The notes under the pieces were generated by a model that saw only the letters and a list, made by a program, of their open reading frames with translations, ran no database searches and was not told where the DNA came from. A DNA stretch of 51,562 nucleotides from Candidatus Omnitrophota bacterium. GTDB taxonomy: Bacteria; Omnitrophota; Gorgyraeia; Gygaellales; Profunditerraquicolaceae. A program made the translations under genes and the position numbers. The stretch lies in NCBI GenBank assembly GCA_025453395.1, contig JALOQK010000004.1:1-51562 (forward strand). Direction: 5' to 3'. Below, one piece after another: positions 19,970 to 23,706 of the stretch; within the stretch, counting starts at the first letter, position 1, and the number at the start of each line of letters is the position of its first letter.

Positions 19970-21265
19970 TTATGAGAGGCCTACTTTGCGGAAAATCTTA
20001 TTCACATTGCGCAGGTAATAATCCACTTCAAAAATTATGTCCAGCTGTTTCTTGTCGAGGTATTTCCTGCCTTGTCTATCTTCAAGAAGCGCATTCTTAA
20101 AATCTATTGCCTCTTTCCATGCGCGCATGGCACAGCGCTGCACAACATCATAAGCCTGCATCCGGGGTAAACCTTTATCCATAAGCTTCAAAAGCACCCG
20201 CTGGGAAAACAATAATCCCTTGGTCTTGGCAAGGTTCAAAAGCATATTTTCCGGATAAACCAAAAGCCCATCCATAACATAGATGAATTTATTCAGCATA
20301 TAATCCAGGGCAATGGTAGAATCCGGCATAATCACGCGTTCCGCCGAAGAGTGGCTGATATCACGCTCATGCCAGAGGGCAACGTTTTCCATGCCTACCA
20401 TTGCATTCGCGCGCAAAACCCTAGCTAATCCGCAAATCCTCTCGCAAATAACCGGATTTCTTTTGTGCGGCATAGCCGATGAACCTTTTTGCCCCTTACC
20501 AAACGGCTCTTCCAATTCCCTGACCTCGGTCCTTTGCAAATGCCTTATTTCCAAAGCAAACTTTTCAAGGCTGGCGCCAATAACCGCCAGGGCCGCTAAA
20601 TACTGGGCGTAGATATCGCGCTGGATAATCTGGGTAGAGATATTCGCTGGCCTTAAACCTAGTTTCTTGCAGATATACGCTTCAATTTCCGGCCCGACAT
20701 TAGCATAAGTGCCCACAGCGCCTGATATTTTACCAACGGAAATTTCCTCTTTGGCATTTTTTAATCTTTCAATATTACGCCTGTTTTCATCATACCAAAG
20801 GGCAAATTTCAGGCCCAAGGTCACTGGTTCCGCGTGCACTCCATGCGTGCGGCCGATACAAACCATGTCCTTATATTTCAAGGCTTTTTGCGCGAGAATT
20901 CCTGAAAGTTTTTCTAAGTCTTTAAGAATAATTCCCGAAGCAGCCTTTAATTGCACGCCCAAAACAGTATCTAAGAGATCCGAAGAGGTCAGGCCAAAGT
21001 GAAAATATTTAGCATCGTTCCCGATATATTTAGATACACAGGCAACAAAAGCAACGATATCATGTTGGGTTTTCTCTTCTATCTTACGGATTTCTTTGAG
21101 GGTAAATTTGGCTTTTTTTCTAATTCTGGATACAGCCTGGGATGGGACTTTGCCTTGTTTTGACAAAGCTTCCAAGGTAAGAATTTCTATACCTAGCATG
21201 GTCTTAAATTTAAATTCATCAGACCATACACAAGAGATTTCCGGCAGACTATAACGCTCTATCAT
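19970..21265 (-). CDS. purB: Adenylosuccinate lyase
   Basis: Cleaves SAICAR to AICAR and adenylosuccinate to AMP. Family signature GSSAMPHKRNP in the flexible catalytic loop, plus TSSDLLDTVLG and GRTHGVHAEPVTLG. Length is 431 aa from the ATG at 21265, which has AAAGGAGG five bases upstream; a longer frame adding six residues is rejected. It is the first gene of the operon purB-purL-LOG-purQ-purF2-purF-purM, with a sigma70-like promoter just upstream. Confidence 0.97.
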   Translation of the reverse strand: MIERYSLPEISCVWSDEFKFKTMLGIEILTLEALSKQGKVPSQAVSRIRKKAKFTLKEIRKIEEKTQHDIVAFVACVSKYIGNDAKYFHFGLTSSDLLDTVLGVQLKAASGIILKDLEKLSGILAQKALKYKDMVCIGRTHGVHAEPVTLGLKFALWYDENRRNIERLKNAKEEISVGKISGAVGTYANVGPEIEAYICKKLGLRPANISTQIIQRDIYAQYLAALAVIGASLEKFALEIRHLQRTEVRELEEPFGKGQKGSSAMPHKRNPVICERICGLARVLRANAMVGMENVALWHERDISHSSAERVIMPDSTIALDYMLNKFIYVMDGLLVYPENMLLNLAKTKGLLFSQRVLLKLMDKGLPRMQAYDVVQRCAMRAWKEAIDFKNALLEDRQGRKYLDKKQLDIIFEVDYYLRNVNKIFRKVGLS

Positions 21266-21297
21266 ACGACCTCCTTTAGGCAAGAAAGAGAGTCTTT

Positions 21298-21432: not shown

Positions 21433-21483
21433 GCGTCGAACTATTGCGGGGAGAGGATTTGAACCTCTGACCTCAAGGTTATG

Positions 21484-22128
21484 CATACTACTACAGTTTT
21501 CACTGCCCCCGACGTTTTTACGTCGGGGTTCGTAGTCTGGACTATATCTTCCCCCAAATGGGGGTCTGCCGTATAGTCTCTACACCTTCCCCCCGCTGCT
21601 TCGTTTTGCGAAGCAAAACGGCGGGGGACTTGGCTCGGTATTACCATTTAAAAGGCTTCACCGAATTTGACAGACTATCCTTTAGCCGTTACTGGCTAAG
21701 GAGCCCATCGGACAACAAATCCCATCTTTCTTTATACTTAGCTGATTGCGGTTTACGCTGCCTCTTATCTGTTTCTACTAGGGTAATGGTACTGCCATAG
21801 CGTGAGAAAACAGACACAGGCATTACGTAAAACACATGTAAATCAGCGAGGTATAGAATTGCGAAATCAAAATCATCGGCATTGTAACGGTGTCTTAGCA
21901 TTCTGCGTCGATTTGTCTTAGTTCTACGCGAATCAACAACATAACATTTTGATTTCGCATCAAACCAAGCTGCTTTGACTTGAACACGTATAAGCCGCCC
22001 CAGGATTTCGATTCCTAAATCATATGCGAATCGATCTCCTACTGGCCGTAACAGCCTAAACCCTCTTTTTAGAAGTTCAGTTGTTACGGCGGATTCCGCA
22101 ATATCAGATTTGAGCTTTGTGTCCATTG
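21484..22128 (-). mobile_element. Group I intron (645 nt) in tRNA-fMet with homing endonuclease gene
   Basis: Core elements on the minus strand: P3 TCTGTC (21674-21669) with GGCAGA (21570-21565); P4 TTCGGT (21665-21660) with ACCGAG (21639-21634); P6/P6a CCCCCGC...GCGGGGG enclosing a UUCG-capped stem; P7 GACTATA (21578-21572) with TATAGTC (21546-21540); P8 CCCCC/GGGGG (21564-21551); P9 ACTAC/GTAGT with two inner stems, one GAAA-capped. The AGAGACTATA and AAGATATAGTCC strings match the conserved R and S elements. P1 pairs exon GGCU (22132-22129) with GGCU (21705-21702), giving the U-G splice-site pair, and is extended by GGACA/TGTCC. AUG (21708-21706) can pair with the first bases of the 3' exon (P10). 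The last base is G (21484). Confidence 0.92.
21689..22126 (-). CDS. Intron-encoded homing endonuclease, PD-(D/E)XK type
   Basis: 145-aa basic protein encoded inside the group I intron. The candidate catalytic set is E11, D36 (AYDLGIE), Q49 and K51 (VQVKAAWF), the PD-(D/E)XK nuclease arrangement. The size, location and residue layout resemble I-Ssp6803I, which I recall from the cyanobacterial tRNA-fMet intron. The expected target is the intronless tRNA-fMet anticodon region. The ATG lies 2 nt inside the intron within P1. The only Shine-Dalgarno-like sequence, AAGG, is the tRNA anticodon stem. The stop codon lies in the P2 loop. A longer GTG-started frame begins in the tRNA and is rejected. Confidence 0.85.
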   Translation of the reverse strand: MDTKLKSDIAESAVTTELLKRGFRLLRPVGDRFAYDLGIEILGRLIRVQVKAAWFDAKSKCYVVDSRRTKTNRRRMLRHRYNADDFDFAILYLADLHVFYVMPVSVFSRYGSTITLVETDKRQRKPQSAKYKERWDLLSDGLLSQ

Positions 22129-22170
22129 AGCCTTGCGAGCTACCAGGCTGCTCCACCCCGCGAAATATTT

Positions 22171-22440
22171 TTACTGCTCTTGCGGCACGACCTTTACCGG
22201 GACTTCACCCTTGCGCACAATCCCCATTCTTTCCCGGGCTACCTTTTCTTTGTAAAAAGGGTCATCTTGTGCCTTGCGCGCGTCTTTTTCCAGAATAGTA
22301 TTCTCTATCTGCAAACGGCGAATCTTAGAATGCAAATCTCTATTTCTCTGGCGCAAATCCTGCATCCGGCTATAACCGGGCAAGAAAATCACAAAAAGCA
22401 AAACCGCCAAACCAAACAGCCAAAAGGCGTTCTTGAACAT
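22171..22440 (-). CDS. FtsB/DivIC-like septum formation initiator
   Basis: 89-aa bitopic membrane protein: a short cytoplasmic start, one transmembrane segment (about 5-22), then a coiled coil (about 25-60) and a short C-terminal tail with the FYKEKVARERMGIVRKGE segment typical of the FtsB/DivIC family. It is expected in the divisome at the inner membrane with FtsL and FtsQ. It starts 3 nt after the eno stop; the eno-ftsB order is also common in other bacteria. The intron-bearing tRNA-fMet begins 8 nt after its stop. Confidence 0.88.
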   Translation of the reverse strand: MFKNAFWLFGLAVLLFVIFLPGYSRMQDLRQRNRDLHSKIRRLQIENTILEKDARKAQDDPFYKEKVARERMGIVRKGEVPVKVVPQEQ

Positions 22441-22443
22441 TTT

Positions 22444-23706
22444 TTAACGGCGTAAAGTGCCGGCGTATACCGCAGACGCGCCCAATTCCTCTTCAATCCT
22501 TAAAAGTTCGTTGTATTTACAAATACGGTCTGTGCGTGATAAAGAACCGGTCTTGATCTGCCCCACGCCGGTTGCTACCGCAAGATGCGCGATAGTTACA
22601 TCTTCTGTCTCGCCTGAACGATGCGAGATGATCGCGCCATACTTATTGGCCTTGGCAATATCTACAACTTCCAGAGTTTCAGAAAGAGAACCGATTTGAT
22701 TTACCTTAACTAATATAGCATTACCTATGTTTTGTGCAATACCTTTTTTGAAAATCTGTGGGTTAGTGACAAAATTGTCATCTCCCACAAGCTGAATTTT
22801 TTTACCCAACTGCTTAGTCATCTCTATCCAGCCATTAGTATCATGTTCCCCCAATCCATCCTCGATAGAAAGTATGGGATATTTACCAAGCCACTTATCA
22901 TAAATGGCAATTAAATCTGCCGCTGTTTTCTTACCGGCTTCAAAGTTATATTGATCGGCTTCACAAAAAGAACTGGCCGCGCAATCAAGGGCCAAGCAAA
23001 TATCTCTCCCCGGCTTGTACCCTGCTTTTTCAATTGCAGCGATAATTAATTCCAGGGCCTCTTCATTGGATTTCAGGTTGGGAGCAAAACCGCCTTCATC
23101 ACCGACGGAAGTGGACAATTTTTTGGATTTAAGGATAGCTTTTAGGCTATGAAAAACCTCGGTTGCCTGCTGTAAGGCTTTTTTAAAAACCGGCGCTCCA
23201 ATAGGCATGATCATAAATTCCTGGATATCAAGGTTATTGTCCGCGTGCAGCCCGCCATTTAGAATGTTCATCAAAGGCACCGGAAGAATGTTAGCTTTAT
23301 CGCCTCCAATAAATTTATATAATGGTTTCTTGGCTTCTGCCGCGGCAGCGCGGGCGACTGCCATAGAAACACCTAAAATAGCGTTGGCACCAAGCTTTCC
23401 TTTATTAAAAGTGCCGTCTAAGGCAATGGTAAGTTTATCTATTGCTTTAAAATTAGGCTCCAAACCCTTTATTTTAGAGGTAATTATGTTATTTACATTA
23501 TCCACGGCCTTCAGTGTCCCCTTGCCCATATAACGCGCCTTGTCGCCATCGCGCAATTCCAAAGCTTCATTATCGCCTGTGGAAGCGCCTGACGGAACTG
23601 CCGCGCGGCCCAACACGCCGTTATCAAGGATTATATCTACTTCTACTGTGGGATTGCCGCGGGAATCAAGGATCTCTCTTGCTTTGACTTCTTTAATTTT
23701 TGCCAT
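22444..23706 (-). CDS. eno: Enolase
   Basis: Glycolytic enzyme converting 2-phosphoglycerate to phosphoenolpyruvate. Family features: [15 protein letters not shown] at the N-terminus, [16 protein letters not shown], the metal ligands in [16 protein letters not shown] and VGDDNFVTN, and the catalytic Lys/Ser region [14 protein letters not shown] with [10 protein letters not shown]. Length is 420 aa, full size. AGGAGG precedes the ATG, and a TTGACC-16-TATAAT promoter lies upstream. It leads the eno-ftsB-tRNA-fMet unit. Confidence 0.98.

Follow-up and report, generated by a model that had tools for sequence, protein, structure and literature searches.

The tRNA-fMet gene of Synechocystis sp. PCC 6803 contains a group I intron of 655 nt that harbors a 150-aa open reading frame (ORF) for the homing endonuclease I-Ssp6803I, and a tRNA-fMet intron with such an endonuclease is listed from one cyanobacterium (PMC1995217). 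A different arrangement is represented by SegB of phage T4, which is described in PMC3984707 as a free-standing homing endonuclease beside phage tRNA genes. According to the same 2014 review, there is little to show that bacterial introns move horizontally from one species to another (PMC3984707). A recent preprint on the tRNA introns of Patescibacteria is cited in PMC12641178, a ribosome biogenesis paper that mentions Omnitrophota together with group I introns.

The stretch of DNA analyzed here, termed the window, comprises 51,562 nt of a Candidatus Omnitrophota genome (GCA_025453395.1, contig JALOQK010000004.1). On its minus strand, tRNA-fMet(CAU) (22162-21444) carries a group I intron of 645 nt (22128-21484) directly behind U33. 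The locus is best read, with a probability of about 0.94, as a mobile self-splicing group I intron with an I-Ssp6803I-type endonuclease in the only initiator tRNA gene detected in the genome, its activities being predicted. The features of the locus are as follows.

22444-23706, minus strand: enolase gene, conserved neighbor and host yardstick (PF00113, E 4e-117)
22171-22440, minus strand: DivIC/FtsB-type septum protein gene, upstream, synteny neighbor (PF04977, E 8e-16)
22129-22162, minus strand: 5' exon of tRNA-fMet, 34 nt, ending in GGCU (U33) (exon joins, ARAGORN intron mode, comparison)
21484-22128, minus strand: group I intron, 645 nt, with the conserved last G at its end (RF00028; ARAGORN i(36,645); 68 introns)
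21689-22126, minus strand: homing endonuclease gene, 145 aa plus stop, PF11645 PDDEXK_5, I-Ssp6803I homologue (profile, PDB, alignment)
21518-21727, minus strand: catalytic core, P2 to P9 (RF00028, 62.3 bits, E 1.7e-13; covariation)
21703-21708, minus strand: internal guide sequence AUGGGC, in which GGC pairs with exon GCU as P1 and AUG with CAU of the 3' exon as P10 (sequence)
21590-21627, minus strand: 38-nt palindromic hairpin, which is P6a, with a 24-nt core at 21598-21621 (sequence comparison)
21444-21483, minus strand: 3' exon of tRNA-fMet, 40 nt, starting with the anticodon CAU (exon joins, searches, ARAGORN intron mode)
19970-21283, minus strand: adenylosuccinate lyase (purB) gene, downstream (PF00206, PF10397)

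An earlier, sequence-only reading of the window had proposed that two tRNA-fMet halves join into a 74-nt initiator tRNA around a 645-nt insert. Its coordinates proved exact, both in the exon joins and in ARAGORN, which calls a tRNA-Met(cat) with a 645-nt intron on the minus strand when introns are allowed. Plain ARAGORN does not call the split tRNA-fMet and reports only tRNA-Thr and tRNA-Phe elsewhere in the window, so that standard annotation may overlook such genes. Three neighboring exon joins yield an identical mature tRNA. In a comparison of 68 introns, a G always precedes CATAACC at the 3' end while the base that follows GGCU is either C or T; since the last G is invariant and the first intron base variable, the splice sites are fixed between U33 and C34. 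Both signals, GGCU before the 5' site and G at the intron end, are present in the window and in all 68 introns. A promoter scan found none on the minus strand.

The same reading had named a second intact tRNA-fMet, together with evidence that this copy is misassembled, as grounds against it. Searches of the draft genome (1.62 Mb, 14 contigs, 96.7% complete) found no second initiator tRNA, the tRNA counts being derived from searches rather than from full annotation, and the other tRNA-Met of the genome (L211) looks like an elongator. The split gene is apparently single, although a draft in 14 contigs may hide another copy.

The intron itself had been assigned to group I on the basis of drawable P3, P4, P6, P7, P8, and P9 helices and of R- and S-type conserved strings, with a search of 21484-22128 with the Rfam model RF00028 as the proposed check. 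The model matches 21727-21518 on the minus strand, and the match is moderate in score and exceeds the 50-bit cut-off. Covariation was counted in 53 aligned homologue cores against the structure drawn from the window sequence. In this alignment 91.5% of the cells are paired, compared with 81.8% after shuffling, and the covariation score of 0.367 (0.169 shuffled) was reached in none of 500 shuffles; the signal is lost when the pairing partners are slid along. Double-sided changes occur in 32 of the 48 pairs, including all pairs in P2 and P9.2 and six out of seven in P3, and the variable P7 pair occurs as AU, GC, UA, and CG. Covariation backs P2, P3, P4, P5, P7, P8, P9, and P9.2; P6a aligns poorly because its length varies. 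Together, the model match and the covariation support a conserved group I core of P3, P4, P6, P7, and P8, with the P3/P7 pseudoknot. The guide AUGGGC is complementary to the exon junction between GCU and CAU, and a U.G pair stands at the 5' splice site, as expected. The P1 helix of the earlier reading is present and short, consisting of GCU with GGC closed by U.G, and its possible P10 is formed by AUG with CAU, in columns that are paired in 83.6% of the cells across the 53 homologues. Nearly all homologues keep GGGC. The anatomy is near certain to be that of a group I intron in an initiator tRNA gene.

The endonuclease ORF occupies the P1 loop and continues across the guide into P2, covering its 5' strand. 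As the guide sits within the last codons of the ORF, the same bases serve both protein and ribozyme. The 145-aa product matches PF11645 PDDEXK_5 (E 1.7e-41) and one PDB sequence, 2OST, which is I-Ssp6803I, over 137 residues (E 3.7e-46). The comparison with I-Ssp6803I that had been suggested on the sequence-only reading is thereby one of clear homology, and the E11, D36, Q49, and K51 that it had placed in a PD-(D/E)XK layout are invariant in 22 aligned homologues. The deposited 2OST chain has Q opposite E11; the crystallized I-Ssp6803I is reportedly an inactive variant.

A mechanism may be proposed from these elements. The guide 5'-AUGGGC-3' would hold the junction of the precursor, GGC pairing with GCU as P1 and AUG with CAU as P10; the ribozyme would cut after U33 using an external guanosine, and ligation of U33 to C34 would restore the CAU anticodon. 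The intron ORF would yield a PD-(D/E)XK endonuclease of the I-Ssp6803I type that cuts at the anticodon stem-loop of tRNA-fMet genes free of the intron, and repair from an intron-bearing copy would spread the intron. Self-splicing, endonuclease activity, and the endonuclease target are thus all predicted from sequence. Decay is seen among the homologues, some of which (L011, L020) carry stops in the endonuclease gene, and the genome is only a draft; the window copy might accordingly be a relic that has lost splicing and homing, its tRNA gene dead and translation started by another initiator tRNA. This is very improbable, as the window keeps both exons, the guide, every core helix, the last G, and the complete ORF intact, and no such other tRNA was found in the genome. 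An assembly artefact or chimera is the least probable explanation of all: metagenome assemblies can be chimeric, but nothing specific to this locus suggests it, and many independent genomes have the same intron at the identical site, with the same neighbors where these were checked.

The mobile intron reading gains weight from the distribution of occupied and empty sites. Close endonuclease homologues, defined by E below 1e-45, are present in 37 of 384 sampled Omnitrophota genomes. A pattern for the empty site occurs in 237 of the 384 genomes overall, but never among the 37 that have such a homologue (Fisher 1.6e-17); part of the sample has neither. The site is either filled or empty, not both, as is the rule for a homing endonuclease. 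Intron-free alleles, which had been suggested as a point to look for, thus exist among relatives, some with an intact tRNA-Met(CAU) at the same locus and in the same order of enolase, DivIC, and tRNA. Filled and empty genomes are both found within one genus (g5). The layout of the locus varies: the endonuclease gene lies within the intron in 42 loci, as in the window, and downstream of the split tRNA-fMet in 26 (for example L078, L093, L100, and L120), with 16 unsorted.

The history of the element was traced in an endonuclease tree, which is short and weakly resolved. An Omnitrophota-centered clade of 41 rows has an SH-aLRT support of 99, and the cyanobacterial copies, most of those from Bacteroidota, and other copies form a separate clade. 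The best 80 of 125 homologues from the genome scan were retained and the sample therefore leans to Omnitrophota; record titles name Bacteroidota, Cyanobacteriota, Melainabacteria, Chlamydiota, Myxococcota, Nitrospirota, Armatimonadota, Chloroflexota, and Planctomycetota. Titles of metagenome bins are fallible, and one in the sample is probably wrong: the match position of the copy labeled Planctomycetales (L068) agrees with that of L031 of G208, a genome of the same class as the one studied here, and L068 was consequently left out of the transfer evidence.

Vertical inheritance from an intron-bearing Omnitrophota ancestor, with many losses and hardly any horizontal movement, would account for most Omnitrophota copies falling within one well-supported clade, for an insertion site that is the same throughout, and for neighbors that are the same where checked. 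It is nevertheless unlikely. A topology that unites the 12 copies from the host's family in a single clade is rejected (p-AU 0.00028), which argues that the element moved between families. With enolase as a yardstick, the copy in a genome of a different family (G280; L006/L042) is 81% identical in the endonuclease and 64% in enolase, and both values are 78% for a genome of the host's own family (G124). A copy labeled Deltaproteobacteria within the Omnitrophota-centered clade is 71% identical in the endonuclease and 62% in enolase, and the intact and intron-bearing genomes of a single genus also speak against descent with loss. These comparisons support lateral movement between Omnitrophota families and suggest that it probably extended into some other phyla. 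The patchy occurrence of the element, within this phylum and in several others, suggests that it has moved between lineages more than once. A recent import from cyanobacteria has in its favor that the type system, I-Ssp6803I, is cyanobacterial (PMC1995217), but it is hardly credible, given that the Omnitrophota-centered clade contains neither sampled cyanobacterial copies nor I-Ssp6803I and that the sampled cyanobacterial genomic copies mostly have the other layout, in which the gene follows the tRNA. The sequence-only reading was right in placing the same kind of system in a host far from cyanobacteria, the host being a member of Omnitrophota. Its proposal of lateral transfer is supported for movement among Omnitrophota families and in the direction of some other phyla; a recent cyanobacterial source finds no support, as the clades are separate.

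Relatives of the endonuclease also occur outside introns. On four viral contigs (L122-L125), a free-standing homologue immediately precedes an intact tRNA-Met(CAU), within tRNA arrays in two cases; these copies are possible vectors. The endonuclease protein has no match in the phage and plasmid record collections. In Omnitrophota, weak homologues of ∼30-36% identity (L127-L134, L136-L139, L146) mostly lie immediately in front of an intact tRNA-Thr(TGT); PF11645 was found in both of those tested. The tRNA-Tyr gene next after tRNA-Thr(TGT) varies between genomes, some having a group I intron in it and others an intact copy.

The genome contains three further places that match RF00028. One is an ORF-less group I intron (L001, G000:C10:4757-4978) that splits a second tRNA, which from its halves is read as tRNA-Asn(GTT); the intron mode of ARAGORN assigns it differently, and the sole exact match to the joined anticodon pattern is not a tRNA. 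The other two (L003, L004; G000:C2:3700-4734) lie in the 23S rRNA gene, where one ORF encodes a LAGLIDADG endonuclease. In the host's family, 60 of 97 genomes have group I intron matches, with up to ten per genome (loci L169-L198), and the split tRNAs are those for Tyr, Lys, Asn, Phe, and Met, and probably Thr and Ser.

The 38-nt P6a hairpin of the tRNA-fMet intron is identical to one in the tRNA-Asn intron (L001 1602-1639), and exact copies of its 24-nt core are confined to these two introns in the genome. With at most one mismatch, the core is present in 15 of 384 Omnitrophota genomes, where it is found not only in further group I introns but also in RNase P RNA, in an FMN riboswitch, and at other sites; additional palindrome loci are L063, L150, L153, L155, and L156. 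Each flank of the palindrome pairs better with its own partner than with the partners found in other copies, which places the palindrome at hairpin tips; in 10,000 permutations none was as good, a figure that is only indicative because the copies are related and non-independent. The palindrome has no match in plasmids or viral contigs. A Y1 transposase gene (PF01797) is present in the genome, and nothing was found that links it to the palindrome. In a broader and tentative reading, which we hold to be somewhat doubtful, the initiator-tRNA intron would circulate widely across phyla, fed by free-standing phage copies beside tRNA-Met, and the P6 hairpin would be a second mobile element, a tiny palindrome whose landing sites are the hairpin tips of structured RNAs of Omnitrophota, such as group I introns, RNase P RNA, and the FMN riboswitch.

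The presence of filled and empty alleles at one locus, both within a genus, along with an endonuclease identity that exceeds enolase identity, makes the movement of an intron between species directly testable. The dependence of an essential and apparently single-copy tRNA on a ribozyme provides a clean natural test of the persistence of such elements. The intron belongs to a known kind of element and is phylum-wide in Omnitrophota; no description of this distribution was found in the literature searched.

The locus shares the traits of the I-Ssp6803I-type family, namely insertion in the anticodon loop of the initiator tRNA between U33 and C34 and a homologous PD-(D/E)XK endonuclease. Compared with the intron of Synechocystis sp. 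PCC 6803, the host gene is the same, the ORF is homologous over 137 residues with the same aligned catalytic residues, and the lengths are nearly equal (645 versus 655 nt for the intron, 145 versus 150 aa for the ORF). In contrast, the host belongs to Omnitrophota, the endonuclease falls in a separate clade, the anticodon-stem sequence of the exons differs from that of cyanobacterial exons, and P6a is a palindrome common to another intron of the same genome. Natural variants of the anticodon stem include GCAAGG, GTCAGG, and GTTGGG. The introns of cyanobacterial tRNA-Leu, proteobacterial tRNA-Arg and tRNA-Ile, and Patescibacteria likewise place a small group I ribozyme in the anticodon loop, but of a different tRNA. 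Most of these introns are not known to carry an endonuclease gene. The SegB type, with an endonuclease gene beside a tRNA, resembles the viral contigs and the weak homologues adjacent to tRNA-Thr, whereas the endonuclease of the window lies inside an intron and belongs to the PD-(D/E)XK family.
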